This document shows, in pieces, positions 32,843 through 64,000 of a DNA stretch of 64,000 nucleotides (its first letter is position 1; every line of letters starts with the position of its first letter). Source of the DNA: Psychromonas ingrahamii 37. Its GTDB lineage: Bacteria; Pseudomonadota; Gammaproteobacteria; Enterobacterales; Psychromonadaceae. The translations under genes were made by a program, and so were the position numbers. The stretch is taken from the NCBI RefSeq assembly GCF_000015285.1, contig NC_008709.1, positions 2,170,001 through 2,234,000 on the forward strand, written 5' to 3'. The notes beneath the pieces were generated by a model, which saw only the letters and a list, made by a program, of their open reading frames with translations, was not told the DNA's origin and did no database searches.

Positions 32843-33784
32843 TTAATCTTTGCAGATAAGTGTATGTAGCGTAATTTCAGGCAGGCAGTTTATGCGTACA
32901 TTCACGATAGAAGTTCCCGAGCCTACCGATGTATAACCTTGCAATTTATGATAGTGCCATGCCCCTTTGCCCACAAAACGCGGACAGTCAGAGTCTAGTA
33001 TAAGAGGAATGCCACCCGGTAAACATATTTGCCCACCATGAGTGTGCCCGGACAAAAGCAAATCAAAGCCCACTTCTGCTGCCTGCTTATAGACGGCGGG
33101 GGTATGAGACAAAAGGATACCGGGTATGCTCTCAGTCATGCCGTTTGCCGCTTTAGGAATATCGTCAGCACAAAAGTAATGCGCATCATCAATACCAGCA
33201 AGAAACAGCGTCCCTTGCCCGCGTTTAATCAGTGTATTTTCATTGACCAGCACTTGAATTCCCATCTCCTCTAAGGCAGGCACCATTGTTATACTGTCAT
33301 GGTTGCCCAATACAGCGTAGACAGGTTTTTTTAGTTGTGCTCTCAATCGCGCCATGGCAGCCATTGCCTTATCTATCTCCCCGTATGTGCGTGCACGGTA
33401 ATCCCCGGTCATAACACAGATATCATAATTTACCTCTCTCACTCGCTCCATCAATGCCATTGTTGCTTGAGCATCCATATCAAGATGCATGTCGCTAAGA
33501 TGAAGAAGAGTGAAATCTTGAAGCTCTGGATGCAGATGCTCGAGTTTAATACTGTTATGGCGAAGCTGAATATTTATGGCATTGCGCTGCCCTTTTTGAT
33601 GCATCAAGCATAGGCGCAGGGTATTTTTGATAATTGAATGTGCGGAGTAGAAATTCTCAATATGAAAAAAATTACGACCCCATCCAAAGACTTGCGCGGT
33701 GTGTGCCTCTTCGCTTGCAACTCGCTGTTTGCTAACTGTGGCACCAAGTCGCTTTTCTAGCGCTGCCAATATATTGTTACTCAT
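32843..33784 (-). CDS. Metallophosphoesterase, YaeI-like
   Basis: A 313-residue calcineurin-type phosphoesterase. Metal-site motifs are all present: LLHLSDMHLD, MTGDYR, LGNHDSI, LSHTPAVY and SGHTHGGQICLPGG. The family includes membrane-associated UDP-diacylglucosamine-like and cyclic phosphodiesterases; here the N-terminal ~70 residues are hydrophilic with no TM helix, unlike YkuE-type relatives. The substrate is unknown. It is on the minus strand next to the IS30 element and has no partner. Confidence 0.88.
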   Translation of the reverse strand: MSNNILAALEKRLGATVSKQRVASEEAHTAQVFGWGRNFFHIENFYSAHSIIKNTLRLCLMHQKGQRNAINIQLRHNSIKLEHLHPELQDFTLLHLSDMHLDMDAQATMALMERVREVNYDICVMTGDYRARTYGEIDKAMAAMARLRAQLKKPVYAVLGNHDSITMVPALEEMGIQVLVNENTLIKRGQGTLFLAGIDDAHYFCADDIPKAANGMTESIPGILLSHTPAVYKQAAEVGFDLLLSGHTHGGQICLPGGIPLILDSDCPRFVGKGAWHYHKLQGYTSVGSGTSIVNVRINCLPEITLHTLICKD

Positions 33785-33862
33785 ATGGATAAAGTTCCTT
33801 TTTCTGCGAGTTAAGCGATCATCAATAAATAGCCACCACTGAAGTATAAATTAGGTGTTTTA

Positions 33863-34054
33863 TTAAATATATTGTAGCGAATCGCCAAAACTTAGAGTCA
33901 TGGGCTTTGCACTGTAAAGTGTGCTTAAGTTAAGGTCATGACAGAGTAAACCATAGGTTGCTGTTTCAATCTTGGGCGAGGTGAAATCATCATTAAAAGC
34001 GCTGACCTTGTTGGCTGAAAGCCAAGGCAATAGGATCAATAGACATAACAACAT
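33863..34054 (-). CDS. Possible small exported protein
   Basis: A 63-codon ORF with a plausible signal peptide (LLCLLILLPWLSANKVSA) and a short hydrophilic remainder. No family is recognised and the ribosome binding site is poor. It may be a truncated gene or chance. It lies 79 bp upstream of the phosphoesterase gene. Confidence 0.3.
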   Translation of the reverse strand: MLLCLLILLPWLSANKVSAFNDDFTSPKIETATYGLLCHDLNLSTLYSAKPMTLSFGDSLQYI

Positions 34055-34718
34055 ATTGAATACATAGAATTTTTTTGACGGATCACCCAGAAAAAAATTG
34101 GCTATTCAGCCTTTGTACAGGAATTTATCCATAAAGCGATTAGAATCGCTTAAAATTAGAGGTAGGGCATCATACATAGATAGCTCGTTCGTTCCATCAG
34201 AATAAAGCCAACATCATAATAAACCATCTAAGGTTGTTGTTGCGATTGCCAGACAGGCCAACAAAGAAGATAGCTGTACCGGCAGATTCTATCGCTGCCA
34301 TCGATGGCGCTGCCCCTTCAGGACTGTTAAAACTGCAAAATCATCAATAGTGTCTTCTTTCATTTTTAAGCTCTTCAGCCTAAAGTTAAGGATGTAATGT
34401 GCTTAAACTCCTTTCTTGCAAATCTTATAGATAGCGGGTGCTACGGCAATTCCTGAGCATGCGTTATAAAACGGAGTATATCTGCTGGTTCGAGCGTTTT
34501 GTTAAAAACACAATCTGTAGAGCAAACCAATATTCGTAACCAATATAAGCAGGTCCCACTTATTTATAATAAAGGTAACTCTATGAATAAGTGGGACGGT
34601 TAAATGATAAGTCGCAGCATGCGGACTCGATACAGTTGTTGTGGTTTTTGTTAAAAAAAGCACCAACCTACGCACCAGTATTTGAGGTCAGCCAAAATAA
34701 TATGGAGATAATCATGCT
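34055..34718. other. Intergenic region before the SLATT-like gene
   Basis: No supported gene. The minus strand around 34230-34350 reads as a short protein-like stretch (PEGAAPSMAAIESAGTAIFF), which may be the tail of a lost gene I cannot identify. Confidence 0.3.
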
Positions 34719-35327
34719 ATGAATGCTCATGAGTTTGTATCGCTGAAAGCGCGATCAAAAGAAGCATGGATAAAGATGGAGCGCTGGCGATTAGCCTATC
34801 GCTCTGATCATAAGTCCATTGGTAATCGTGCGAATTATCTAAAATGGGGAACCGTTATAAGTGGTGTTTTAACCGGTGCCTCATCACTCTCATTTCTTGG
34901 CGAAGACCCAACTAAATATATAACCGGCATCGCGGGATTTATGACTGGCGTGCTTGCTGTTATGGATAAAGTATTTCAATGGGAGTCCAACGCCAATGAA
35001 GCGTGGAGAAGTTCCAAGTTGTTAGAAGATTTACAGTCAGATTTATACCAGTATTTATGGTCTGTTAGCGCTAGCAAGCTAATAGAGAGTCCGGAAAGTT
35101 ATCTTGCAAAAATAAATAACAAGTTAATTTCATACACTTCATTACCCTGTACAGATCCAGATCAATTTTTAGAAGCAGCGGAAGAAGCATCAAAACGGTT
35201 TAATTTTGAGAACATGGTAATGATAGATCACGCAGTGCCCGATGAACCCGATGACGATGACCCACTTCCAGAGGAAGTTGATGGCATTGATGGTTTTCAA
35301 CCCGTTATCGATGGAGGAGATTTCTAA
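34719..35327 (+). CDS. SLATT-like two-TM protein (predicted conflict effector)
   Basis: A 202-residue protein with an N-terminal amphipathic helical part (residues 8-40, rich in Trp/Arg), two closely spaced TM helices (about 41-60 and 67-84) and a C-terminal helical region with a very acidic tail (PDEPDDDDPLPEEVDG). This layout, with YLKWGT before TM1 and FQWESNANEAWRSSK after TM2, fits the SLATT class of predicted membrane effectors in nucleotide-dependent immunity systems. GGAG lies 11 nt upstream. The stop overlaps the next start (TAATG), so it is coupled to the pYEATS-like gene. The assignment is by pattern, not by search. Confidence 0.6.
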   Translation: MNAHEFVSLKARSKEAWIKMERWRLAYRSDHKSIGNRANYLKWGTVISGVLTGASSLSFLGEDPTKYITGIAGFMTGVLAVMDKVFQWESNANEAWRSSKLLEDLQSDLYQYLWSVSASKLIESPESYLAKINNKLISYTSLPCTDPDQFLEAAEEASKRFNFENMVMIDHAVPDEPDDDDPLPEEVDGIDGFQPVIDGGDF

Positions 35328-35674
35328 TGCAGTACACAATAAAAAGCAATGTGATTAGAAATATCGATGGGAAAATAAAATATAAGCAATTCAATGAGAA
35401 AGGTAAAATGCACTTTCATCTTGGAGTATGGGTTGATGCACCAGAGAGAGAGCTAGATGAAATTGAGTTTGTTGAATATGCGCTGCATCCAACGTTTAAA
35501 AAACAAAATAGGCGCTCCCTGAACAGGCTAAATAACTTCTCTATCACTTTTTGGACATGGGGCATATTCAATATTAAAGTCGCAATACACCTGCATTCAG
35601 GAGAGATTATAAATATGGATTATTATCTTGAATATACTCTGCCTTCCGAAAAAAGTGAGTATGTGCAAGTCTAA
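35327..35674 (+). CDS. pYEATS-like domain protein
   Basis: A 115-residue, mostly beta protein. The core VEYALHPTF (49-57), then FSITFWTWGIFNIKVAIHLH (71-90) with SGE and a final YYLEYTL strand, matches the prokaryotic YEATS-like pattern, in which a hydrophobic strand ends in LHPTF and a W-G-x-F strand follows. In known cases pYEATS domains accompany membrane effectors, often SLATT or TIR proteins, as a possible sensor or adaptor. Here it is a stand-alone partner of the SLATT-like gene, sharing one base with its stop. There is no other enzyme in the unit. Confidence 0.6.
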   Translation: MQYTIKSNVIRNIDGKIKYKQFNEKGKMHFHLGVWVDAPERELDEIEFVEYALHPTFKKQNRRSLNRLNNFSITFWTWGIFNIKVAIHLHSGEIINMDYYLEYTLPSEKSEYVQV

Positions 35675-35738
35675 ATGGCTAACAAAACCTCCAGTGGACA
35701 CGGGAAAGTCTCGCCTGATCCCATCTTGTTTTAGGTAC

Positions 35739-36001
35739 TATACCCATGATACCTCAAGATGCAAAGTCAGCAAGAAAAATTGTGCCGAGATGCCAGGCAT
35801 AAAATTGAAGTCTAGTTATTCTACAGAGAGATTTTATAACAACGCAGATTGGTACAATTTTCCTTGCCCTACGGGGCGCAAGTTCGAAAACCAGCGCTGC
35901 GTTGCACCAATCGGAAAGGGAATAACCATTACCTCATGTTGCGTCTTGCTCTGGTCTCCGAGCTTGCGCCTGACAAAGCATCTTGAAGTAACATGGGTAT
36001 A
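35739..36001. mobile_element. MITE-like element, 263 bp
   Basis: The left end TATACCCATGATACCTCAAG followed by ATGCAAAGTCAG and the reverse complement of the right end, TATACCCATGTTACTTCAAG followed by ATGCTTTGTCAGG, form roughly 32-bp inverted repeats. No transposase is inside. It lies just after the pYEATS-like gene and is probably mobilised by a transposase elsewhere. Confidence 0.8.
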
Positions 36002-36483
36002 TATTGGAATGTTAAATATATTATGACAAAAGAGGCAGAGGGAGTTGAAGCTGAAAATAAGGAGGAGCAACGCATTTTTTCCCGCAATGCCTGACACCTG
36101 GCGGGATCTGTTATCGAGCATTATTCTGAAATAATTATTCCCAAATAAATTGATATAGGCCAGCTTTTATTATGCTCTGAAAATTATTCAAAATTAGTTT
36201 TGTCAATCAATATGACCTGCTGGAAAAAGTCACTAAAAGTGTGACAGCGCTAACATTGGTTGCTACATGAATTCATGGTCGAGTTTTTTCACGCTGCCTT
36301 TTGTATATCTGCAGGTAAATATTTGTTTTTTTCTATCAACAATAACCTTAATTTTCGTTTTCATTCTGACTATTAATATTGTATAAGTGCTTAAAATAAA
36401 TAATATTACAACACCTTTCTGTGTGACGATTTTAGGTGCGTGTTTTTTTCTACTGAGAGTCACACAAGAAAAATCAACAACTT
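36002..36483. other. Intergenic region after the MITE
   Basis: No gene recognised. A short palindrome (CATGAATTCATG) occurs near 36266; otherwise nothing. Confidence 0.3.
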
Positions 36484-36858
36484 GTGAGTTCGATCCTGCG
36501 TTTATTCCTTCTCAATTTATACGCCTTACTGGATAATATTGGTGGAAGAATTCAAGGTAGAAACAAAGCGTATTTCTTATGGGACGCAATCAGGCTCTTC
36601 ATTCATTTCACTTGTTCATTCTCCCTATTTTTACTGTATTTCTTATTGTGTTCACCGTGCATTTTGTGTGAAGACTATCCATATATCGGGAAACGTTTTG
36701 TGCACCAGCCTCAATGGATGATTGATCGTATTTGTCAACTCAATGATATTTATCTATTAATGTGTGCGCTTATTCGATTATGTTCAATCCCAATAGCTAA
36801 AATAAAAGGTATTTATTCTCCTATACTGAGCAAATGCCTTAAGCTTCCTATTTTCTAA
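36484..36858 (+). CDS. Uncertain ORF before yihY
   Basis: A 124-codon ORF starting with GTG and ending 23 bp before the YihY gene. It has one or two hydrophobic stretches (FIHFTCSFSLFLLYFLLCSP) and several cysteines but no known family. Part of it (36731-36809) resembles non-coding DNA at 41559-41623, so the region may be a dispersed repeat instead of a gene. Confidence 0.3.
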   Translation: MSSILRLFLLNLYALLDNIGGRIQGRNKAYFLWDAIRLFIHFTCSFSLFLLYFLLCSPCILCEDYPYIGKRFVHQPQWMIDRICQLNDIYLLMCALIRLCSIPIAKIKGIYSPILSKCLKLPIF

Positions 36859-36881
36859 ACTTTTATGATAAGGATCTATTA

Positions 36882-38210
36882 ATGAAATCATTTATAACAA
36901 AGTTCATTAATTTTATTGAAACGGATATTTGGCGGATTCGGGCTAACCAGCTCTCAGGAATGAAATTGTTTGGCCTTCGTCAACTTCGTATTATCCTTTT
37001 GGCTATTCGTGGTTTTGCTGAAGATAAATGCATGCTGCGCGCCTCTGCCCTAACTTTTTTCTCTTTATTATCTATGGTCCCGGTTGCAGCGATGGCTTTT
37101 GGCATTGCCAAAGGGTTTGGCTTTGATAAAAAATTAGAAACATTATTATTTGATAACCTGCAGGGTCAGGAAGAGGTCGTTGAGAAACTGATCGGATTTT
37201 CTCAGGCGATGCTTGAAAATACCCAAGGCGGTATTATTGCCGGGATTGGTACTGTCGTATTATTTTGGGCCGTCATTAAAGTATTAGGTCAGATAGAAGA
37301 ATCGTTTAATGAGATATGGGGGATTAAAAAAAGTCGAAGTTTTGCAAGAAAGTTTAGCGATTATGTCTCTATTATGTTGATTTGCCCTGTTTTATTAATT
37401 ATATCTAGCAGTACCACCGTTATTATTAGTAGTCAGGTTACACTTCTGGTGGAAAAAATATCCTTTCTCGGGCCGATTGTTCCGCTTATTATTACTAGTC
37501 TTAAAATTCTGCCTTATGCTGTTATTTGGACGGTATTTACTTTTATTTATATTTTTATTCCTAATACCAAAGTAAATTTTAAGGCCGGCCTTTTAGGGGG
37601 AATTATTGCAGGGACTACCTATCAGATTGTTCAATGGATTTATATAACGTTTCAGGTGGGCGTCTTAAAATATGGTGCCATTTATGGGAGCTTTGCGGCC
37701 TTACCGCTGTTTTTAGTGTGGCTGCAGATGAGTTGGCTGATTGTCCTTCTAGGCGCAGAGGTTTCCTTTGCTGAACAAAATGTGGAAACCTATGAATTTG
37801 AACCGGATTGTCTAAAAGCCAGCCATTCATTTAAGCGATTAATTTCCTTATACATTGTTCTATTAAGTGTTAAAAATTTTTGTAAGGGAGAAAAACCCTG
37901 GCACGCCGATCAAATATCACATTTTGTGGAATTACCGATTCGGCTTGTACGTCAAATCCTTTTTGAATTAACTGAAGCAGGTCTGTTGGTTGAGGTCAAA
38001 TTAAATGATGCTAATACCTTGTTTTACCAACCGGCACGCGATCCGGAATTCCTTACGATTTTTCATGTTCTGGAAGTATTAGATCAACATGGTATTGATG
38101 CTGTTCCAATTATAAATTCCAAGGAATTAAATAAACTAAAAGAAACTTTTGATAAATTTAAGACCGCTATTGAAAATTCCCCATCTAATATTGCCTTAAA
38201 GGATATTTAA
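36882..38210 (+). CDS. YihY/BrkB family inner-membrane protein
   Basis: A 442-residue membrane protein. The first 280 residues hold about six TM helices with family motifs: MLRASALTFFSLLSMVPV, QEEVVEKLIGFSQAMLENTQ, WGIKKSRSFARKFSDYVS, GAIYGSFAALPLFLVWLQMS and LLGAEVSFAEQN. The C-terminal 130 residues are cytoplasmic and resemble a winged-helix-like region (LPIRLVRQILFELTEAGLLV). E. coli YihY is of unknown function. AAGGA is 9 nt upstream. It may be co-transcribed with the uncertain ORF before it. Confidence 0.9.
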   Translation: MKSFITKFINFIETDIWRIRANQLSGMKLFGLRQLRIILLAIRGFAEDKCMLRASALTFFSLLSMVPVAAMAFGIAKGFGFDKKLETLLFDNLQGQEEVVEKLIGFSQAMLENTQGGIIAGIGTVVLFWAVIKVLGQIEESFNEIWGIKKSRSFARKFSDYVSIMLICPVLLIISSSTTVIISSQVTLLVEKISFLGPIVPLIITSLKILPYAVIWTVFTFIYIFIPNTKVNFKAGLLGGIIAGTTYQIVQWIYITFQVGVLKYGAIYGSFAALPLFLVWLQMSWLIVLLGAEVSFAEQNVETYEFEPDCLKASHSFKRLISLYIVLLSVKNFCKGEKPWHADQISHFVELPIRLVRQILFELTEAGLLVEVKLNDANTLFYQPARDPEFLTIFHVLEVLDQHGIDAVPIINSKELNKLKETFDKFKTAIENSPSNIALKDI

Positions 38211-38422
38211 GATAGGGGGCAAAAGCAGGCAGCCATAAATTTTTCCGTCTGGTAAAAAATGCAGTAAAAAGCGACCCAAGGCTGTTGGTATTACAGCAAA
38301 CTGCTTCGCACAATTGAACCCGTTTTGGGTGATATTCTGGTGAATAAAAGAATGAATCAATTCACGCTTTGCGGGTAAGATCAAGTGAATGCGAAGTGCA
38401 GAGACTATTCAACTGGGCAACT

Positions 38423-39184
38423 TCATTTTACTCCTTGTGCAGTCACTCCTTTAGTCGCTCGTATTTTCCGAAGGGATTTCATTCTTTGCCACTTTTGGGC
38501 ATTTAGTTTTTTATAAATCCAAAGGCAGCCAAGATCAAAACCAAAGTAGAACACACTGATGCCACTGGGGGGATTAGCACTGGTGATAAAAGATATTTTA
38601 GAAAACCAAGTGTCGGGCCATACCCAGCAAGCGTAATAGGTACCTAGAAGCTCTAAATATACAATCATGAAAAACATAATGAGGAAAAATAATTTGTTAG
38701 CTATTTTTTTCTTTAGAAAAAAGATTACAAATAACATGCATAAAAAGCCGAGTATATCCTGTGCTAAGGCCAGCCAAAGGCTTGAATAAATGATCATTGC
38801 ACAATAAAGAATGGATGTAATAAGCTCTTTCTTTCCTTGAATAACCTTCTCTTTATTAATGTAAAAAACGGCAGCGTAGATCAAGCTATGTCCTAAGGGG
38901 ACATAAAGAGGAATATTCTCTAATCGATACTCGTACATACCCAGCAGAACTGCAAAAAACATTTCACCTAAAAAAGCCAGACCTATGCCATAAATCATCA
39001 AGGTCTTTATTTTCTTAGCTACTTTTTTATAAACCCAAAAAAAGCACAAAAAAACAAGACCGTTAGTTAGCCATTGGCTGTATTCGATCACCTCTGCCAC
39101 GGGTTTACTATCTAAAAATAAGCCAATCCACAGCACCAGAAAAACAGGAAAATAAATAGAAGAATATTGCAGTTTTGATGTCAT
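38423..39184 (-). CDS. Conserved hypothetical polytopic membrane protein
   Basis: A 253-residue protein with about seven hydrophobic segments. Notable stretches are NIPLYVPLGHSLIYAAVFYI and CWVWPDTWFSKISFITSANP followed by PSGISVFYFGFDLG, which look like conserved polar motifs in membrane helices (H, W, P, D). The C-terminus is basic. No enzyme family is recognised; the motif density suggests a membrane enzyme or transporter. It is on the minus strand with no clear partner. Confidence 0.6.
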   Translation of the reverse strand: MTSKLQYSSIYFPVFLVLWIGLFLDSKPVAEVIEYSQWLTNGLVFLCFFWVYKKVAKKIKTLMIYGIGLAFLGEMFFAVLLGMYEYRLENIPLYVPLGHSLIYAAVFYINKEKVIQGKKELITSILYCAMIIYSSLWLALAQDILGFLCMLFVIFFLKKKIANKLFFLIMFFMIVYLELLGTYYACWVWPDTWFSKISFITSANPPSGISVFYFGFDLGCLWIYKKLNAQKWQRMKSLRKIRATKGVTAQGVK

Positions 39185-39598
39185 ATTATAAATACATATA
39201 TAGGAGAAAAAGGAACGTTAACATTATGATATTAAGGCTTAATTAAATCGTGACAGTGAATTTTTTTTTATGTTTTATTCTATTCCGTCTGGTAATCAGA
39301 ATATCTGCTGCATGCCGGTCAAGAGATTTTATCGAATATGATGGCGCTTTTTAATGTATCTAATGCGCTTGAAAGCAGTATATTTGACGAGCTAATAAAT
39401 ACCAAGTAACCAGTTGCAATGAACTGCTATAATACGGAAGATACTCATCAAATATATGCCGATAGCGGTTTATGTCACTGTATTACCGTTAGGGTCACTC
39501 AACATAGTATTTTAACGATTGATGTTATTCCATGATTTGACTAATGTGGAAGGCCATAGATATAGCCGAATTTCACTGTATTTCTCGTAAACTGTCTT
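39185..39598. other. Intergenic region
   Basis: A 414-bp AT-rich stretch between two minus-strand genes. No gene, RNA or clear terminator is seen. Confidence 0.35.
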
Positions 39599-40495
39599 TT
39601 AAAGTTGAGCAACATGCGTTCTGTTTCGTCCCCATTCTTTGGACTCATAAAGTGCTTGATCAGCTAATTCAAGTAATATATCAAAATTTGTTTGGGTGTT
39701 TTTACGCGTGACGACTAAGCCGATACTTACGGTGATTTTTATATGGTCTATTGTTTGCTTTTCAATTTTTTTCCTTAATCTTTCGGCTAATTTATAGGCA
39801 TTTTCTTCATCAATATTGGGTAATAGTAATGCAAATTCTTCACCTCCCATTCTTGCCACTATATCAGTTACTCTTCGTTCTTGAGTCAGTATATTAGCCA
39901 GGCATATTAAAACCTTATCTCCAGCGGGATGGCCGTATGTATCATTAACACGTTTAAAAAAATCAATATCAATAAACAATAATGCAAATGTTGATAAGTT
40001 TCTGGCAGCTTGATGAGTGACTTTTTGGGCCTGTACTTGCAGTTCGCGCCTGTTCAATAAACCGGTCAGGGGATCTGTTGTTGCCAGACGAAATAACTCT
40101 TGAGACTGTTTTTCAAGCTTTTCATTCGCTTTTAACAGCTCACTGTGAAGCTTATCTCGATTTTCACAGACGTAAAGTGACCAGTAAGATATATCTTCTG
40201 ACCCCAGCTTTATATTCACTACAACGGGTATTGTTTCTCCGTTTTTCCCAATCCACGTTATTTGGATTTCTTGTGCGCATGATTGATGCATTAATAGTGG
40301 ATAAACATAACTATCAATAAAAATATTAGATGCTTTGGTAACAAATTTGGATAGGGGGTTATCAATCAGACTTTTATCAGACTGGTCACTTAAATCACAA
40401 ATATAATTATTGCAATAAAGAATTTTTCTAGCTTTATTTACAATAAGATGACCAGAAAAAAAATCGTTTAAATTTGGAACTGCGTTTTTTTTCAT
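39599..40495 (-). CDS. PAS-GGDEF diguanylate cyclase paired with RsbQ-like hydrolase
   Basis: A 298-residue soluble protein. An N-terminal PAS domain (about 8-115) is followed by a short coiled coil (LHSELLKANEKLEKQSQELF) and a GGDEF domain (about 135-295). The cyclase signature is GGEEF in ARMGGEEFALLLP, with an inhibitory-site RVTD five residues earlier, so it should make c-di-GMP and be product-inhibited. The PAS segment around DSYVYPLLMHQ and IGKNGETIPVVVNI resembles the PAS of Bacillus RsbP. The ATG at 40495 lies 4 nt after the hydrolase stop; a TTG at 40510 is less likely. No membrane segment is present. Confidence 0.88.
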   Translation of the reverse strand: MKKNAVPNLNDFFSGHLIVNKARKILYCNNYICDLSDQSDKSLIDNPLSKFVTKASNIFIDSYVYPLLMHQSCAQEIQITWIGKNGETIPVVVNIKLGSEDISYWSLYVCENRDKLHSELLKANEKLEKQSQELFRLATTDPLTGLLNRRELQVQAQKVTHQAARNLSTFALLFIDIDFFKRVNDTYGHPAGDKVLICLANILTQERRVTDIVARMGGEEFALLLPNIDEENAYKLAERLRKKIEKQTIDHIKITVSIGLVVTRKNTQTNFDILLELADQALYESKEWGRNRTHVAQL

Positions 40496-40499
40496 TCGG

Positions 40500-41303
40500 C
40501 TATCGTCCAATAAAACGAAGAATTATCGGGATAATATCTTGGTGATTTGTCATATGTAAACAATGGCCTTCTGCATTAATAATGGCAAGTTCATTATGAG
40601 CAATTTTTTCAGCCATGTAATATCCAATATTGATGCCGGCCAATGAATCGGACGCACTTTGTAGTATTAGCACAGGGCAGGTTATATTTTTTAAAATGTG
40701 TCGATGATCTGAAAAAAATGTGGCTTTAGCAAACGTCTTTGCCACTAAGGGATCTGTACTGCAGAAACTGCCTGACAATTCACCAATGAGCTCAGGTGAT
40801 TGTGAATTTCCCATAATAAGGGGGGCCAAATAATTTGCCCAGCCAATATAATTTTTATCCATCAGTTCAATGAGATCTTCCAAGTCACTTCTTTCAAATC
40901 CTCCCTCATAATCGGGGGGGATATTTAGAAAGCAGGGCGATGGACAAACCATCACAAGATGCTTAATTAATTCGGGTCTTTTTATAGCAGCAATTGAAGC
41001 AATAATAGAACTCACCGAGTGCGCAATAATGGTAACGTCCTTTAAATTCAATGCTTCAATAATATCAACAATATCTTTTGCATAACCTTCTAATGTAGAA
41101 TATTTTTCCTTGGAATAATCAGTTAATAAAGAATTTCCAGAGCCGACATAATCAAATAATATAATTTTATAGTGGCTTTCTAATTCAGGTAACATATATT
41201 GCCACATATTCTGATCGCAGCCAAATCCATGTGCCAACATTAAAATAGGAGCATTTTTCTTGCCTATTATTTTGACATTATTTCTTAATATTACACTGCT
41301 CAT
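40500..41303 (-). CDS. RsbQ-like alpha/beta hydrolase
   Basis: A 267-residue hydrolase closely resembling RsbQ of Bacillus: SVILRNNVKIIGKKNAP, HGFGCDQNMW, LFDYVGSGNS, MVCPSPCFLNIPPDYEGGFE, NYIGWANYLAP, SFCSTDPLVAKTFAKATFFS and AEGHCLHM. The catalytic triad S96, D219 and H247 has the same numbering as RsbQ. RsbQ works with the PAS phosphatase RsbP in energy-stress signalling and is related to plant KAI2/D14 ligand receptors. Here the next gene is a PAS-GGDEF cyclase, so a hydrolysed or bound small ligand probably controls c-di-GMP output. This role is inferred. Confidence 0.9.
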   Translation of the reverse strand: MSSVILRNNVKIIGKKNAPILMLAHGFGCDQNMWQYMLPELESHYKIILFDYVGSGNSLLTDYSKEKYSTLEGYAKDIVDIIEALNLKDVTIIAHSVSSIIASIAAIKRPELIKHLVMVCPSPCFLNIPPDYEGGFERSDLEDLIELMDKNYIGWANYLAPLIMGNSQSPELIGELSGSFCSTDPLVAKTFAKATFFSDHRHILKNITCPVLILQSASDSLAGINIGYYMAEKIAHNELAIINAEGHCLHMTNHQDIIPIILRFIGR

Positions 41304-42106
41304 TTCAGGTTACATACTCCCAGAATTTTTATTATTATTGAATTTTTCATATAAAAATATACATGATTATTACAGTTTATTATAGCGTTATATGCAGGGA
41401 AAGATAACGCGCTGATTAGCAGTGTTATTCTTATAAGCAGCGATAGAGAATCCTTAAGATCACGAGCTTTATTAACTCCCTTTGTCAAGACTTCCTATTA
41501 TCACAGCCTTTTTCGTTGTGTTCTCCATGCCTTTCCCGTTGTGTTTGCCATACATTTTATTTGTCAGCTCAGTAATATTTTCACCTGTTCGATTATATTC
41601 AGTCCCCGCAGCTAAAATAAAAGTCATGTGGTTTTGCATGGCAATGAAGTCGAAATAGCGGCTTGCTCAGATGAACATATCTGCAAGCGCAGGTATCAGC
41701 TTTATTTAGTTTATTGCTCTCAAAATGGGTGCTAACCCGCGATGCTGAAATTAATATGGAACAGAAAGTAATCGCTAAATGGCGATCGTTTAATTGATAT
41801 TTTTTTGGTTTATTCACCCTGCATGCTAAGTACTATTACATAAATTCCCCTGCATTTTTGAGCCTTTTACTCAATAAAATGCGCTTTAACATCAGAAAAA
41901 TTTCGGGTAGGTACTTAGTTAACGCTATTCAAATTTTTCTCCTAGAATGATGTGAAGGGCACTTCAAGTCGCGGGCTTTGCTCGATGAGAAGGCATGCGT
42001 ATGTTGATTTTATATTAATCAGATATTGCTCTGATTAGTTAAAGCAAAATAGGTAGTGCGGCTTTTTGTGGATAGTAAAAGAGTTATCAGTCAGTGCGCT
42101 TAGAAT
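41304..42106. other. Long intergenic region with dispersed repeat
   Basis: No gene is supported. Bases 41559-41623 match 36731-36809 in blocks (TTTGTCA-CTCA-T-ATATT, TTCGATTAT-TTCA-TCC, AGCTAAAATAAAAG), with weaker matches upstream. The rest shows nothing recognisable before the Fur-like site at 42107. Confidence 0.4.
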
Positions 42107-42125
42107 CACAATGATTATCAATAGG
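42107..42125. promoter_or_regulatory. Fur-box-like operator
   Basis: CACAATGATTATCAATAGG, read on the minus strand, matches the 19-bp Fur consensus GATAATGATAATCATTATC in 14 of 19 positions, including a run of ten. It ends 8 bp before the start of the lysozyme-like gene, where repressor binding would block expression when iron is plentiful. Confidence 0.5.
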
Positions 42126-42133
42126 GGGATATT

Positions 42134-42616
42134 ATGAATAAAGCACAAGTTTTTAGAGAGACAGTGATACAACCCGTTTTGGCTAGATTGGGGGAGGAAA
42201 ACTTAGCGGCGGAAGAGCTTCTTTTAGGAACCGCTGTTCAAGAAAGCTTAAATTTTATGTATAGAAGGCAAGTTGGAGAAGGGCCTGCTAAAGGATATTT
42301 TCAGATGGAACCGTCTACACATAATGATATTTGGGATAACTATTTAAAATATCGTCAAGCGTTAGCAAACGATATTCTGTCTTTTCTTTCGAATGTTAAT
42401 GCAAATAAGATTGATGAGCTGGAAACTAATGATAAATATGCGACCGCTATGGCGCGGGTTCATTATATGAGAGTTTCTGCACCCTTACCTAAAGCGGGTG
42501 ATATTGCGGCACAAGCAAGATACTGGAAGCAGTACTATAACACGCCATTGGGTAAGGGAGTGCCACATGAATATATTGAAAAATGGAATAAATATGTTAT
42601 TGGTACTACACCTTGA
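42134..42616 (+). CDS. Phage-type lysozyme/transglycosylase-like protein
   Basis: A 160-residue protein without signal peptide. The segment LLLGTAVQESLNFMYRRQVG then GPAKGYFQMEPSTHNDIWDN resembles phage virion-associated muralytic proteins, where the Glu in the GT-V-ES motif would be the catalytic acid. GGGGGAT lies 5 nt upstream and a Fur-like box just before that. It is isolated from any prophage genes and is followed after 17 nt by a lipoprotein gene, so the pair could be a retained phage fragment or an effector with its protector. Assignment is from memory of the pattern. Confidence 0.55.
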   Translation: MNKAQVFRETVIQPVLARLGEENLAAEELLLGTAVQESLNFMYRRQVGEGPAKGYFQMEPSTHNDIWDNYLKYRQALANDILSFLSNVNANKIDELETNDKYATAMARVHYMRVSAPLPKAGDIAAQARYWKQYYNTPLGKGVPHEYIEKWNKYVIGTTP

Positions 42617-42633
42617 GTGCAAGAAGATTTGAC

Positions 42634-43155
42634 ATGCTAAATATTAAGTTTAATAAAATAATTTACCTCCTTTTTATGTTGTTGGGGTTTTTATTTATTA
42701 GTGCATGTAACGCGACAAGTCCAAGTGTGGTGACTTCAATAACAAACAACAACGCCTATTACCATTTAAAGTATTCACTGACTAAAGAAAACATCACTTA
42801 TATTGATTCATTTACAGGTGAACAATTTATAATTAATGGTGGCCAGTTTGAAATTAGGCTTAAAAAATCCGAATTTCCAATTAGCTCTCCGAATTGTAAA
42901 TCTGATCTGATACTTAGAATGCCATGGACAAATCCTGAGATCGTTAATAGTTATATATTCATTGCAGAAAAGTATGAAGTCTTTCATTATATTCAAAATT
43001 TGACTAAATCATCACAACCTAATGCTGTTGATATTTATGTGGAATTAAACCCATATGTTGAATTAAAGGAAGGGGAATTTAGCCTGACTCAGTGCAATAT
43101 ATATTTTAGGCAATCCAAGGGCCAATATATTTCAAAAATTGGCAATTTAAAATAA
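42634..43155 (+). CDS. Small lipoprotein paired with the lysozyme-like gene
   Basis: A 173-residue protein with a lipoprotein signal peptide (FLFISAC, Cys about 25) and a mature part of mostly beta character with two further cysteines (PNCKSDLIL, LTQCNIYF) that could form a disulfide. No family is recognised. The ATG at 42634 is preferred to a TTG at 42613 that overlaps the previous stop. Its closeness to the muralytic-like gene suggests linked function, for example as an inhibitor in the periplasm; this is speculation. Confidence 0.65.
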   Translation: MLNIKFNKIIYLLFMLLGFLFISACNATSPSVVTSITNNNAYYHLKYSLTKENITYIDSFTGEQFIINGGQFEIRLKKSEFPISSPNCKSDLILRMPWTNPEIVNSYIFIAEKYEVFHYIQNLTKSSQPNAVDIYVELNPYVELKEGEFSLTQCNIYFRQSKGQYISKIGNLK

Positions 43156-43677
43156 TAAAAACATAACGGTACTAAAAGAAATAAAAAGACAGCCATTATA
43201 AAATTGACTGTTTTTTGAACTTATCTAAATCCATTTTTTTGTTTTTAGTCCGGTGGGTGGGTTGTGCCATCGCCTTTAAAAAGCCAAATCAGTTTTATTG
43301 ATACGCCTTACTATCGCTGTAAAATAAAGTAAGAAAATAAAGTAAGAAGACACTCCATAAAGTTGCGGTAAAGAAAGGGATCAATAAATTCACGCTTCAC
43401 AGACAAGTGCGCAGTGGCAGATGCACAGCCTGACACGATATAGAGAAGTTAAAAAATATTAGATAAGGCAAGGACGAAGCACTCATCCCCCACTTTATAA
43501 ATCCTCAATAAACCGGTTTATCACTCAATTTAACCAATCTGTTATTAAAAAAAAATTAACTAATTGAATATCAATAAAATATAAATTAATGTTGCTTGTC
43601 TTTTACACTTCGGGGCTGGAAATGAAAAATTATACCGCCTCGTCATAGATCTTTAACTATAAAAGTGAGAAGTTTTT
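43156..43677. other. Intergenic region
   Basis: A weak hairpin with A and T runs (about 43183-43217) follows the lipoprotein and may be its terminator. The stretch AAATTCACGCTTC (about 43388) resembles AATTCACGCTTTG near 38358. Nothing else is supported. Confidence 0.35.
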
Positions 43678-44586
43678 ATGAATAACACTGCCAAACCAAT
43701 TAAAACGCGAGAACTCCATAATCATCATTTTGATTCTACAATTTGGAATGAGCTTAATTTTAGAGACGATGATATTGTTATTTCAACCTACGCTAAATCA
43801 GGAACAACCTGGGTACAACAGATTATCTCTCAGCTTTTGTTCAACGGCGAAGAAGGACTGGAAGTGGCAGAAATGTCCCCATGGCTTGATCTGCGAGTGC
43901 CGCCTAAAGAGGTAAAACTGCCGATGGTCGAGGCACAGACTCATCGACGGTTTTTAAAAACGCATCTACCTGTTGATGCATTGACCTTTTCTGAAAAGGC
44001 TAAGTACATTTATATCGGCCGCGACGGGCGCGATGTTTTATGGAGCATGTTCAACCATCACTCGACTGCTAATCAGGCCTGGTATGAAGCTTTAAATGAC
44101 ACTCCCGGTAGAGTCGGACCCGCAATTGAAAAGCCATCGGGTTCAATAACTGAGTATTACCATCATTGGCTCGATCAAGATGGGCACCCTTGGTGGTCAT
44201 TTTGGGAAAATATCCGATCTTGGTGGGCAATCAGAAATCTACCGAATGTCTATTTTTTGCATTTCGAAAATCTTAAAAACGATATGCCCGGAGAGATTCG
44301 CCGCTTAGCAGAATTCCTTGGAACCCCGATTGATGAAGACAAATGGGAGTCTATACTGCGCCATTGCAGTTTTGAATATATGAAAAAAAATGCCGCAAAA
44401 AGCGTCCCCCTTGGTGGTGCTTTTTGGAATGGCGGTGCACAAACCTTTATTCATAAAGGGACGAATGGTCGTTGGCGCGATGTCCTAAGCGCAGAGGATT
44501 CTTACAAATACGAGCATCGAGCAGCACAAGAACTCGATTCTAAATGTGCTTCTTGGCTCGCTACGGGTGAAATTTCACAGGGCTGA
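43678..44586 (+). CDS. Sulfotransferase family protein
   Basis: A 302-residue cytosolic sulfotransferase. The PAPS-binding loop is TYAKSGTTWVQQI near residue 40, the 3'-phosphate site is YIYIGRDGRDVLWSMFNHHS near 120, and the C-terminal segment has NGRWRDVLSAEDSYKYE (GxWrd motif). It transfers sulfate from PAPS to an alcohol or amine of unknown identity. The layout resembles aryl/steroid-type enzymes (SULT-like) often found in marine bacteria. It is alone, so no substrate clue exists. Confidence 0.88.
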   Translation: MNNTAKPIKTRELHNHHFDSTIWNELNFRDDDIVISTYAKSGTTWVQQIISQLLFNGEEGLEVAEMSPWLDLRVPPKEVKLPMVEAQTHRRFLKTHLPVDALTFSEKAKYIYIGRDGRDVLWSMFNHHSTANQAWYEALNDTPGRVGPAIEKPSGSITEYYHHWLDQDGHPWWSFWENIRSWWAIRNLPNVYFLHFENLKNDMPGEIRRLAEFLGTPIDEDKWESILRHCSFEYMKKNAAKSVPLGGAFWNGGAQTFIHKGTNGRWRDVLSAEDSYKYEHRAAQELDSKCASWLATGEISQG

Positions 44587-45107
44587 ATCAATTGCATCGA
44601 TGGATAAGACCAAAAGAGCTGAAAAAATGATCACTTGCGGGTTAAAATCATCCCTAACTGCGTTGTGATTTTTATTCAGAAGATACTGTCTTCACCTTTT
44701 GTAGTCAGCTAAAGCTATTCAAAATCGTTCCATACGATTGTGTGAAATGAGAATAACGATCGAATGCAACTTTAGTGTTGATTTTTCCTTCGCAATCATT
44801 GACCACTTCATTAATTCTTTTGGTATAACCAGGTTACATAAAGGTCTTTTGTGGATATTACTGCTTTGTAACGCGCTCAATAAATCAATATACTGTTCCA
44901 CTGTAATTTCTGTTTTAATGGCAGAAATACAGAAAAATGCCGCTTTCCCGCAGGATTTATATTTCATTTTTTTCGTCACGTTTTGAACCACTGTTTAAAT
45001 CTGCTATTCTAGTAACGTTATGAAATCATTGGCAGTGTCGGTGTTTCTTGTGGGAAGGTGGAATTATTCCGTCTAAAAAATATTATATTTTTATTGGGAA
45101 ATGAAGT
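44587..45107. other. Intergenic region with an ambiguous small ORF
   Basis: The minus strand 44719-44991 encodes about 85 residues (MKYKSCGKAAFFC, IHKRPLCNLVIPKELMKW, SIVILISHNRMERF) that look protein-like but match no family I know. The plus strand is also open here. I cannot decide whether a gene exists. Confidence 0.3.
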
Positions 45108-60975: not shown

Positions 60976-63267
60976 TTATTTACGTTTATGACAGCGCAGA
61001 TGAAAAGTGATTTCAGAGGCCTTCATCGCTTTACTGTGCAACTGCTGACTGGCCGGCTCAACTTCATTCGAGATTTTATTCGGTATTGCGGGCTCACCGT
61101 CGGTGTTATTAGCGAGTGAGTCAGCAACGACCGTCACACCTAATGAGCGGGACAGAAAAAGAAACCCATCCTGTAGCGCACGGTTAACAAAGTTGACAGA
61201 CCCATCGGTAAAATGGGGTGCTATTTTAAATTTATCGATTGTTAACTGTTCAAACAGCCTAAACAGTGGACGATCTGCACCAAATTTATCAACGGTCAGT
61301 GCCATGCCCATCTTACTGATATTGAGAATATTTTCATAAACGGTTGGGTTATCACTTTTAAAAGTCACTTCATCGATTTCAAACTCCAGCCATTCTATTG
61401 AACACTTCGTTTCCAGCAGAATAGTCTGTAGATCTCCAATCAAACTAAATTGTGATAATTGCACTTCCGTTAAATTAATGGCAATACGTCCGAAATTAAT
61501 TGCCGCTTTCTGCCAGATTACCGCCTGCAGTGCGGCTTTACGGATCATAATAAGACCTATCTGCACCGCTAAACCGTAATGTTCAGCCAGGCTTATAAAG
61601 CTGTCCGAATGTAGCACGCCACGCTGCGGGTGATTCCAGCATAACAGCGCTTCCAGCGCGACAATTTGCCGTTTACTCAGATCGTACTGAGGCAGGTAGT
61701 ACAGCTCAAACTGATCCTGCGCCACTGCTTGTGTTAATGCTTCTTTAAATTTAACCTGCTGCCGTGAATATTGGGTCAACTTTTTAGTATAAAAATAATA
61801 GGTCGTGGTCTGAGCTGACAGCTTGCCGCTTTTTAAAGAGGGTGCTGTAGCGGTAACAGAATCACTTTCTTTTGTGGTGTTAATATGGGATTTACCACGC
61901 TGCATCGCTTTTTCCGCGTTGCCTAATAGCGTGTCTATATCAGTGCCATCGTCAGGATAGAGGGCAATCCCGATTGTCGCAGAGAGATGCGCAGATGAAT
62001 GGTCAATGTCAAAGTATCGCTCAAATTGCGCGGTTATATTTTGCGCGACATCAGCCACATCCTGTTCATTAAGCAACTCATCAATAATAATAACAAACTC
62101 ATCACCACCAAAACGCGCAACCGTATCTTTTTCAGAAACACAGCTTTTAAGACGTTCTGCAATCTGTTGTAGAGCCATGTCTCCCGCATTATGCCCATGC
62201 TGTTTATTAATTGCCTTAAAGCCATTAATATCCACTAACAGCACCGCCATCATCCGCTGATTAAAGCTTGCCCGGGCTATTACTTGTTCCAATCGGTTAA
62301 ACAGCGCAATACGGTTAAATACCCCGGTCAGCGGATCATGTTTTGATAAAAACTGTATTTTGGGCTCAACTCTTGTACTTTGCTTTAAATCGATAAAGGA
62401 ACTGATACGGCAGAGTGTCCCTTTTTCTTCGAGCTCAATAACATACATTTCTGACCAGCAATAATGATGTTCGCCATTTTTTGTGCGATATGACATATCT
62501 CCCTGCCAGCTTTTATCTTTTTGTAATGCAGTCTCTATCTTCTCATATTGACTGCTTTCAAGTATGCTGACATGTGATTGCAGCAGCTCCTCTTTTGAAT
62601 AACCGGTCGTATCGCAACTGGCCTTATTAGCCTCAACAATATAGCCATTTTCATCGCTGATAATAATGCATTCCAGCGTATGAGTGAATATATTGGCGGC
62701 AAGTTTGAGTTTTTCATCGGCGCGTTTACGGTCGGTGATGTCAATTACCGCGGCAAGACAGTCTGTTTCGGTAATGCCGAGATTGGCTTCAATATTCAGC
62801 CAACGCTTATGCTTGCCAATCTGTGCTAAGACCTCAAAGGATTGTATGCCATCACCCGCAAATGCTTTTGCCAGACAACGGTTGAATTTATCACGATCTT
62901 GGGGTGTTAAGTAGTTTGAAAACTGTTTTCCTACCAAGTTAGCGCGTTCAATATCCAATAGGCTCGCCCCGCGTAAATTAACCTGATTGACAACGCCCTT
63001 CAGATTGAAAGAAAAATAGGCAATAGGTGCAAATTCAAATAACTCGGTATAGCGATAATATAATTTTTCGGTTATCCGTGCTTGCTTTAACTCCTCATTC
63101 TGCATTTCCAGCTCAATCTGATGAACCTGCAATTCGTGTATCATCTTTTTGGCTGCATAGTCGCTAGGAATAGTTTGTTTGATTTCTGTTTGTGTTTTCA
63201 GTTGTGCTTCCGCGCGCTGGCGTAACGTTTTGCTGGATAGCTTGGTTGACTTTGCAGGTGTCTTCAT
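60976..63267 (-). CDS. PAS-PAS-GGDEF-EAL protein with degenerate EAL
   Basis: A 763-residue cytoplasmic regulator. After a short coiled coil (LEMQNEELKQARITEKLYY) come two PAS domains (about 75-185 and 190-305), a GGDEF domain with ARFGGDEFVIIID, and an EAL-like domain (about 515-745). The GGDEF signature is intact but the inhibitory site reads SEKD, lacking the Arg. The EAL domain keeps EALLCW but has lost the DDFGTG loop (here DKFGADR), the K-I-D motif (here KIAPHF) and the ExxE-type end (here VVADSLA). It is probably a cyclase whose EAL part only binds or regulates. Its ATG overlaps the upstream stop (ATGA). Confidence 0.9.
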   Translation of the reverse strand: MKTPAKSTKLSSKTLRQRAEAQLKTQTEIKQTIPSDYAAKKMIHELQVHQIELEMQNEELKQARITEKLYYRYTELFEFAPIAYFSFNLKGVVNQVNLRGASLLDIERANLVGKQFSNYLTPQDRDKFNRCLAKAFAGDGIQSFEVLAQIGKHKRWLNIEANLGITETDCLAAVIDITDRKRADEKLKLAANIFTHTLECIIISDENGYIVEANKASCDTTGYSKEELLQSHVSILESSQYEKIETALQKDKSWQGDMSYRTKNGEHHYCWSEMYVIELEEKGTLCRISSFIDLKQSTRVEPKIQFLSKHDPLTGVFNRIALFNRLEQVIARASFNQRMMAVLLVDINGFKAINKQHGHNAGDMALQQIAERLKSCVSEKDTVARFGGDEFVIIIDELLNEQDVADVAQNITAQFERYFDIDHSSAHLSATIGIALYPDDGTDIDTLLGNAEKAMQRGKSHINTTKESDSVTATAPSLKSGKLSAQTTTYYFYTKKLTQYSRQQVKFKEALTQAVAQDQFELYYLPQYDLSKRQIVALEALLCWNHPQRGVLHSDSFISLAEHYGLAVQIGLIMIRKAALQAVIWQKAAINFGRIAINLTEVQLSQFSLIGDLQTILLETKCSIEWLEFEIDEVTFKSDNPTVYENILNISKMGMALTVDKFGADRPLFRLFEQLTIDKFKIAPHFTDGSVNFVNRALQDGFLFLSRSLGVTVVADSLANNTDGEPAIPNKISNEVEPASQQLHSKAMKASEITFHLRCHKRK

Positions 63268-64000
63268 GGGTTGGACCTCGTCTTGCGTAATTCTGACTCA
63301 AGCAGTTTGGCTTCACTAATATTGGTGAAGGTTATCACCACACCGTCAATGACATTTTCTTGGGTACGATAAGGCATGATCCGGACTTTGAACCAGCGTT
63401 CATTGTTAGCCGCTATCTCTTTTTCTACGAAGGCCAGCGTTTTTAACACCTTCTTAGCATCTTTTTGCAGATCTTTATAATCCAGATCCGTGACAATGTC
63501 GAACAGTGGTCGGCCCTTATCACCTTCAATCAGCTTGAATACATGAGTGGCATGGTTGGTGAAGCGCCGTATATGCAGTCCGTTATCCAGAAAAATGGTA
63601 GCAATTTCTGTACTGTTAAGCAGGTTCTCCATGTCATTGTTGACCCATGACAAATCATCAACGTTGGATTGCAGTTCGGTGTTGACGGTTTGCAACTCTT
63701 CATTCATTGACTGCATCTCCTCTTTAGAGGTGGTCAATTCTTCATTGGTGGATTGCAACTCCTCATTCGTTGATTGCAACTCCTCATTGGCAGACTTTAG
63801 TTCCTCATGAGTGGATTGCATTTGTTCGCGGAGGGATTTTATTTCATCATGCGCCAGTTGTAGTTCGGCCTGACTTTCTTGCTCCGCTGCCCCCTGTTTT
63901 TTGCGTCGCCGCCTGGTCGGCGTCACAACTTCAGTAAACACCACCATTATTAAGCCAAGCAAATCTTTTGGCTTAATAATCGCTTGTACCGTCAAATTGA
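63264..64000 (-). CDS. CheB/CheR-PAS-type protein, C-terminal part (continues beyond window)
   Basis: The visible part has a sequence ending like the CheR/CheB linker (KPKDLLGLIMVVFTEV), a long repetitive coiled coil (EELKSANEELQSTNEELQ pattern) and a PAS domain (NLLNSTEIATIFLDNGLHIR to IDGVVITFTNISEAKLLE). This order is typical of the large CheB-CheR-coiled-coil-PAS fusion proteins, which link chemotaxis-type methylation to signalling. The upstream domains lie outside the window. The stop overlaps the next gene's ATG, so it is coupled to the PAS-GGDEF-EAL protein. Confidence 0.85.
   Translation of the reverse strand, partial: NLTVQAIIKPKDLLGLIMVVFTEVVTPTRRRRKKQGAAEQESQAELQLAHDEIKSLREQMQSTHEELKSANEELQSTNEELQSTNEELTTSKEEMQSMNEELQTVNTELQSNVDDLSWVNNDMENLLNSTEIATIFLDNGLHIRRFTNHATHVFKLIEGDKGRPLFDIVTDLDYKDLQKDAKKVLKTLAFVEKEIAANNERWFKVRIMPYRTQENVIDGVVITFTNISEAKLLESELRKTRSNP

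Follow-up and report, generated by a model that had tools for sequence, protein, structure and literature searches.

An RsbQ-type hydrolase gene adjoining an RsbP-type PAS–diguanylate cyclase gene in Psychromonas ingrahamii 37: a highly probable bipartite sensing module, very probably listed in 2011

In Bacillus subtilis, RsbQ and RsbP form the energy stress branch of the sigma-B response. RsbQ contacts the PAS domain of RsbP, and the F55A substitution in RsbP breaks both the contact and signalling (PMC3183031). Alanine changes at L48, F55, Y59, and E72 of RsbP are null, as are substitutions in the RsbQ catalytic triad, and the PAS domain belongs to a class without the DIT motif (PMC3183031). 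Two models have been proposed, in which either a product of the hydrolase is delivered to PAS or PAS senses through contact whether the hydrolase is occupied; the signal itself was unknown in 2011, according to the available part of that paper (PMC3183031). Nadezhdin, Brody, and Price, in the same 2011 study, sought PAS genes downstream of RsbQ and described RsbQ-PAS modules with diguanylate cyclase outputs, including two copies in P. ingrahamii: A1SVT3, a PAS-coil-cyclase protein, and A1SX34, in which a cyclase and a phosphodiesterase are linked via a heterologous PAS (PMC3183031). In Moorella thermoacetica, a stress-module partner likewise controls a GGDEF output, the RsbT-controlled cyclase MtG (PMC12143880, available in part). 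P. ingrahamii has been credited with 61 c-di-GMP regulators (PMC2405808, available in part).

We analyzed a 64,000-nucleotide stretch of the P. ingrahamii 37 chromosome (NC_008709.1, positions 2,170,001 to 2,234,000), hereafter the window, in which an RsbQ-type hydrolase gene is followed by a gene for an RsbP-type PAS-GGDEF protein. The presence of this pair, reported in an earlier note made from the sequence alone, is confirmed, and the interpretation given there is supported. We consider it highly likely that the two genes constitute an RsbQ-PAS bipartite sensing module with a diguanylate cyclase output. Because the genus and the architectures of both modules in this genome fit the 2011 description, A1SVT3 and its RsbQ partner are very probably the proteins encoded by the window pair. 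The hydrolase is of the RsbQ type in both cases, the genes stand in the same order, and an N-terminal RsbP-type PAS leads through a linker helix to a GGDEF output; comparison with the available part of the published description found no difference (PMC3183031). The pair is of a kind described in 2011 and adds no new type of system. What we add is the absence of its segment from a sister genome, its grouping with other marine genera, members with GGDEF-EAL outputs and reversed gene order, and the exchange of outputs. The features are as follows (window coordinates unless stated).

40500..41303, minus strand: RsbQ-type alpha/beta hydrolase, 267 aa, assigned by homology and triad
41016-41018, 40647-40649, and 40563-40565, minus strand: hydrolase catalytic codons Ser96, Asp219, and His247, respectively
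40496..40499, minus strand: 4-nt intergenic gap, from the sequence itself
39599..40495, minus strand: PAS–coiled-coil–GGDEF protein, 298 aa
40166..40474, minus strand: RsbP-type PAS domain, about residues 8-110
40283-40336, minus strand: F-alpha helix of PAS, residues 54-71, in which F59, Y63, and P66 correspond to RsbP F55, Y59, and P62
40079..40165, minus strand: linker helix from PAS to GGDEF, residues 111-139, predicted by AlphaFold2
39620..40078, minus strand: GGDEF domain (Pfam)
39833-39847, minus strand: GGEEF motif, residues 217-221
39863-39874, minus strand: I-site R208-x-x-D211
39434..41915, strand not applicable: 2,482-bp segment with both genes, absent from the sister genome G390
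2805863-2809163 of the P. ingrahamii genome (L006 1864-5164): second RsbQ-PAS module, hydrolase at 2808351-2809163

In a phmmer search against the PDB, the window hydrolase best matched 3qvm (Olei00960, E 7.9e-112), which we take to be an Oleispira protein; a literature search on 3QVM, or on Oleispira with RsbQ, found nothing relevant. B. subtilis RsbQ (1wom, 1wpr) came next, at E 2e-85 over residues 1-261, followed by the plant KAI2/D14-type receptors from E 1.5e-54. The hydrolase is thus nearer to RsbQ (289.8 bits) than to the best plant receptor (188.6 bits), and the analogy with karrikin and strigolactone receptors drawn in the earlier note holds as kinship and no further, the KAI2/D14 proteins being homologous alpha/beta hydrolases more distant than RsbQ. 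Their partners also differ from those of the RsbQ-PAS module. As judged from its sequence, the window protein carries the Ser-Asp-His triad of catalytic alpha/beta hydrolases, at exactly the residue numbers given previously. In an alignment of 86 pairs (78 of the 80 loci described below, L059 and L075 being left out, plus eight others), S96, D219, and H247 are kept in 86/86, 86/86, and 85/86 hydrolases, respectively. The nucleophile elbow of the window protein is AHSVS, a form shared by 5 of the 86; the commonest is GHSVS (79/86). The paired hydrolase at L055 (5001-5780) has Asn at the His247 position and retains GGEEF and the pair; this may reflect decay, a sequencing error, or a receptor-only form.

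The PAS-GGDEF open reading frame begins with ATG at 40495 on the same strand, and positions 40499-40496 follow the hydrolase stop, in agreement with the 4-nt spacing noted before; an RsbQ homologue (E 2e-85) thus lies immediately upstream, and the two genes probably form an operon. The claim that an intact GGEEF cyclase replaces the phosphatase of RsbP also stood up. The GGDEF domain matches Pfam PF00990 at E 2.1e-45 and has, at the sequence level, both the GG[DE]EF motif and the I-site RxxD, the product-inhibition motif, of an active cyclase. It occupies the place of the C-terminal PPM (SpoIIE-type) phosphatase found in RsbP proper; a search of the whole genome with PF07228 gave three places, none within the window. 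AlphaFold2 with a 58-row alignment (mean pLDDT 93.7, pTM 0.67) predicted a PAS fold with its F-alpha helix at residues 54-71, a single linker helix at 111-139, and a GGDEF domain. The predicted helix would correspond to the helical linker that joins RsbP-type PAS domains to PPM, kinase, or GGDEF outputs, and a helical linker is likewise found in B. subtilis RsbP. A Foldseek search with the full predicted model returned LOV/PAS-GGDEF structures and GGDEF domains and nothing bearing on RsbQ contact.

General Pfam models match the window PAS weakly (PAS_9 at E 1.1e-4 and PAS at E 7.4e-4, both below cut-offs), and a PDB search with this domain alone gave at best a PAS kinase at E 0.38. We examined its RsbP-type character with a dedicated profile, A2, built from 15 hydrolase-paired PAS domains of other organisms (14 with kinase and one with phosphatase output, by Pfam or record annotation) and containing neither cyclase-protein rows nor the window row. 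A2 found 16 places in the P. ingrahamii genome at E up to 10. The PAS of the second module scored 85.9 bits and the window PAS 76.7 bits, whereas the other 14 places scored 25.2 bits or less; the domain is thus far closer to the RsbP type than are these other PAS-like places, as the earlier note had proposed from two strings (YVYPLLMHQ and NGETIPVVVNI) that are indeed present in the protein.

Residues critical for RsbP function are also in place, with RsbP-equivalent positions assigned by motif register and residue numbers taken from the available part of PMC3183031. Among the null-type residues, F55, Y59, and E72 are identical (F59, Y63, and E76), and L48 is represented by the hydrophobic V52. 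RsbP L13, P62, and P86 are retained, the latter two as P66 and P90, and the changes are C10 to S, Q53 to N, and C56 to I. Across the 86 aligned pairs, the place of RsbP Y59 is taken by F, Y, or H in 84, and P62 is kept in 85, the sole exception being the second module of P. ingrahamii. The DIT motif at the PAS end, sought as D[IVL][TS][ED] in residues 96-150, was matched by none of the 86 members, the window PAS included.

To see how widely the pair is conserved, one genome per species was scanned with the hydrolase alone, which gave 118 relatives; the best 80 were kept, and seeding by short peptides of the window protein favoured close relatives. An RsbP-type PAS gene adjoins the hydrolase in all of these best 80 of 118 loci, and the pairing is therefore not due to chance. 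They represent 79 distinct loci, since L059 and L060 share an identical overlap of 1,003 bases and are two contig ends of a single locus. In 76 of the best 80 the PAS gene lies directly downstream, and in 75 its chosen start lies between -44 and +63 nt relative to the hydrolase stop; at L075 it starts 179 nt after the stop. It lies directly upstream at L027, L061, and L072, and at L059 the contig ends after its first 35 residues. The outputs among the best 80 of 118 comprise 13 histidine kinases, 66 GGDEF domains, and one not seen (L059), as assigned by Pfam in 18 loci and by the GGEEF motif in the remainder. Three of the 66 GGDEF outputs also have EAL, and one, at L067 (5808-6692), has no GG[DE]EF motif, its GGDEF domain still being recognized by Pfam. 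The paired loci, with kinase or GGDEF outputs, span eight named phyla, and a phosphatase output is found next to an RsbQ-type hydrolase in a Streptomyces plasmid. A PAS-GGDEF-EAL gene (Pfam) upstream of the hydrolase was observed at L027 3214-5786, L061 3210-5795, L072 3164-5792, and L095 3797-6407, and these are four of the five GGDEF-EAL members seen.

A census of the class among 370 genomes placed the hydrolase (E up to 1e-50) at five places in four genomes, and four of the five places have an adjoining PAS. An unpaired RsbQ-type hydrolase, 51% identical, occurs in G054 (L094 2727-3551), with no PAS gene adjoining on its 5.96-kb contig. Another PAS profile, A1, with the window row among its members, gave 23 places in the same 370 genomes at E up to 1e-8, mostly with the best 11 candidates per genome scored; the four beside hydrolases scored 91.6-156 bits and the 19 others at most 57.7 bits, and none of these 19 is beside a hydrolase passing the census cut-off. 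The co-conservation anticipated in the earlier note is thus borne out in the census as well as in the scan.

Statistical signals of coevolution were less specific. Over 64 cyclase-type pairs, distance matrices correlated equally for hydrolase-PAS (0.50) and hydrolase-GGDEF (0.50), with none of 500 permutations as high; at the level of sequence distances this shows co-inheritance and singles out no specific hydrolase-PAS contact. Hydrolase-PAS covariation was computed over the 86 pairs (Neff about 58). F-alpha, with 17 of 118 columns, accounted for 10 of the 60 strongest covarying pairs, where its share of columns would predict about 8.6; shuffling the pairings 40 times gave a mean of 2.8 and a maximum of 8, but the leading real pairs resemble lineage contrasts. 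Recurrent neighbour genes were considered as a clue to the ligand in 84 loci (the 80 and four plasmid loci) and rejected: the largest cluster (9 loci; a receiver/Hpt signalling family by eye) lies at scattered distances, the next four (5 loci each) are all from Paraglaciecola, and smaller ones are mixed. Counted against the reading of the pair as a module are the unpaired G054 hydrolase, the equal PAS and GGDEF distance correlations, the degenerate cyclase of L067, and the lack of His247 in L055.

By analogy with B. subtilis, the hydrolase would touch the F-alpha helix of PAS, where F59 and Y63 would be the contacted residues. Binding or conversion of a small molecule by the hydrolase would then change the PAS dimer, and the linker helix 111-139 would pass this change to the GGDEF dimer and set c-di-GMP synthesis. 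Likely downstream effects in this bacterium, probably an inhabitant of sea ice, would be on exopolysaccharide and attachment. The earlier note knew of no worked-out mechanism for this form; in fact the RsbQ-PAS-cyclase linkage and two models were published in 2011 with P. ingrahamii named (PMC3183031); no experimental test of the cyclase form was found in the open-licence literature by title and abstract opening.

The model in which a product of the hydrolase serves as PAS ligand or cofactor, so that catalysis is essential and PAS is the sensor, has in our view nearly an even chance of being correct. It is favoured by the near-invariant triad, each position of which is kept in at least 85 of the 86 paired hydrolases, and by the null phenotype of triad substitutions in B. 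subtilis; against it, no ligand or cofactor was found with RsbP-PAS as far as the available part of the 2011 paper goes (PMC3183031), and L055 keeps the pair and GGEEF with Asn at His247, a substitution that gene decay or a sequencing error might explain.

The alternative, that the hydrolase is a receptor whose occupancy is signalled by PAS contact and that hydrolysis only resets it, we regard as a tentative possibility, somewhat below an even chance. KAI2/D14 are thought to signal in this manner, and the hydrolase is their kin. It is also more conserved than PAS (mean distance 0.41 versus 0.65 over the 64 cyclase-type pairs), as was likewise reported in 2011 (PMC3183031), but nothing in these data sets the receptor model apart from the product model. 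That the genes merely share an operon of convenience, the hydrolase being a metabolic enzyme and the cyclase sensing something else, is very unlikely: the unpaired G054 homologue would suit it, but it is opposed by the pairing in 80 of 80 loci (79 distinct; best 80 of 118) across eight phyla with kinase or GGDEF outputs, by the paired phosphatase output on the Streptomyces plasmid, by the conservation at P62 (85/86) and Y59 (84/86), and by the direct RsbQ-PAS contact in B. subtilis (PMC3183031). Among the titles and abstract openings found by searches of the open-licence literature since 2011, none names a ligand of RsbQ-type modules. With its stand-alone cyclase output, measurable product, and simple gene pair, the bipartite module of the window is a convenient place to seek the signal.

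The closest sister genome found, G390, in which the BrkB-family and DHH/DHHA2-family neighbours are 95% and 100% identical, respectively, is collinear in pieces (33585 to 39433 and 41916 to 44607) and has 264 bp in place of 39434-41915; searches of it for the hydrolase (cut-off 1e-40) and for a PAS of this type (cut-off 1e-5) were negative. Within the genus, the hydrolase occurs in only 4 of 24 genomes (P. ingrahamii included, some incomplete). The proteins of the other three share 61-62% identity with the window hydrolase, against 82% for that of Marinomonas transparens. In the hydrolase tree, the window protein groups with Marinomonas and then with Neptunomonas (99/83 and 99/82), and the two congeners tested, L021 and L024, fall in another group; over 2 kb compared, the pair-bearing DNA of L021 is identical to that of Psychromonas sp. 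RZ5 and that of L024 to that of P. arctica. On these sequence comparisons, gain of the pair by transfer is the simplest reading, with loss in G390 a less simple but possible alternative. In the same tree, where a length rule gave L072 the label GGDEF despite its additional EAL, the distribution of kinase outputs requires three or more changes along well-supported branches, and output domains have therefore been exchanged. It is possible, if doubtful, that the pair is a self-contained sensor cassette, a unit of about 2.5 kb that moves among marine gammaproteobacteria, has an exchangeable output and gene order, and senses a single small molecule that many phyla have in common.

The segment ends carry no convincing mobile-element repeats, only short imperfect pairs, and no integrase was noticed by eye among the window ORFs. 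A 91-bp stretch at the segment edge (39449-39539) is 76% like L101 8137-8218 in the contig of the sister and is perhaps a small interspersed repeat. Promoter-like sites numbered 15 versus 13.9 in shuffles and terminator-like sites 5 versus 1.7, none of the latter just behind the cyclase gene.

The second module of the genome encodes a protein of 823 residues with an RsbP-type PAS first, then two PAS matches, GGDEF, and EAL (Pfam); the A1SX34 description has one further PAS where two are matched here (PMC3183031, available part). In its first PAS, the positions of RsbP F55, Y59, and P62 are occupied by L, Q, and T, respectively, and the usual hydrolase contact may therefore be changed. It falls in a deep group of the hydrolase tree with mostly kinase outputs (98/97), on a long branch that makes the placement unsure; from this grouping, it does not appear to be a recent copy. 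Elsewhere in the window, two adjacent genes at 60976-63995 encode a PAS-GGDEF-EAL protein and a PAS_10 protein with a long helical stretch (Pfam), and a sulfotransferase-family protein (Pfam Sulfotransfer_1, E 1.7e-50) is encoded near the pair, at 43678-44586.
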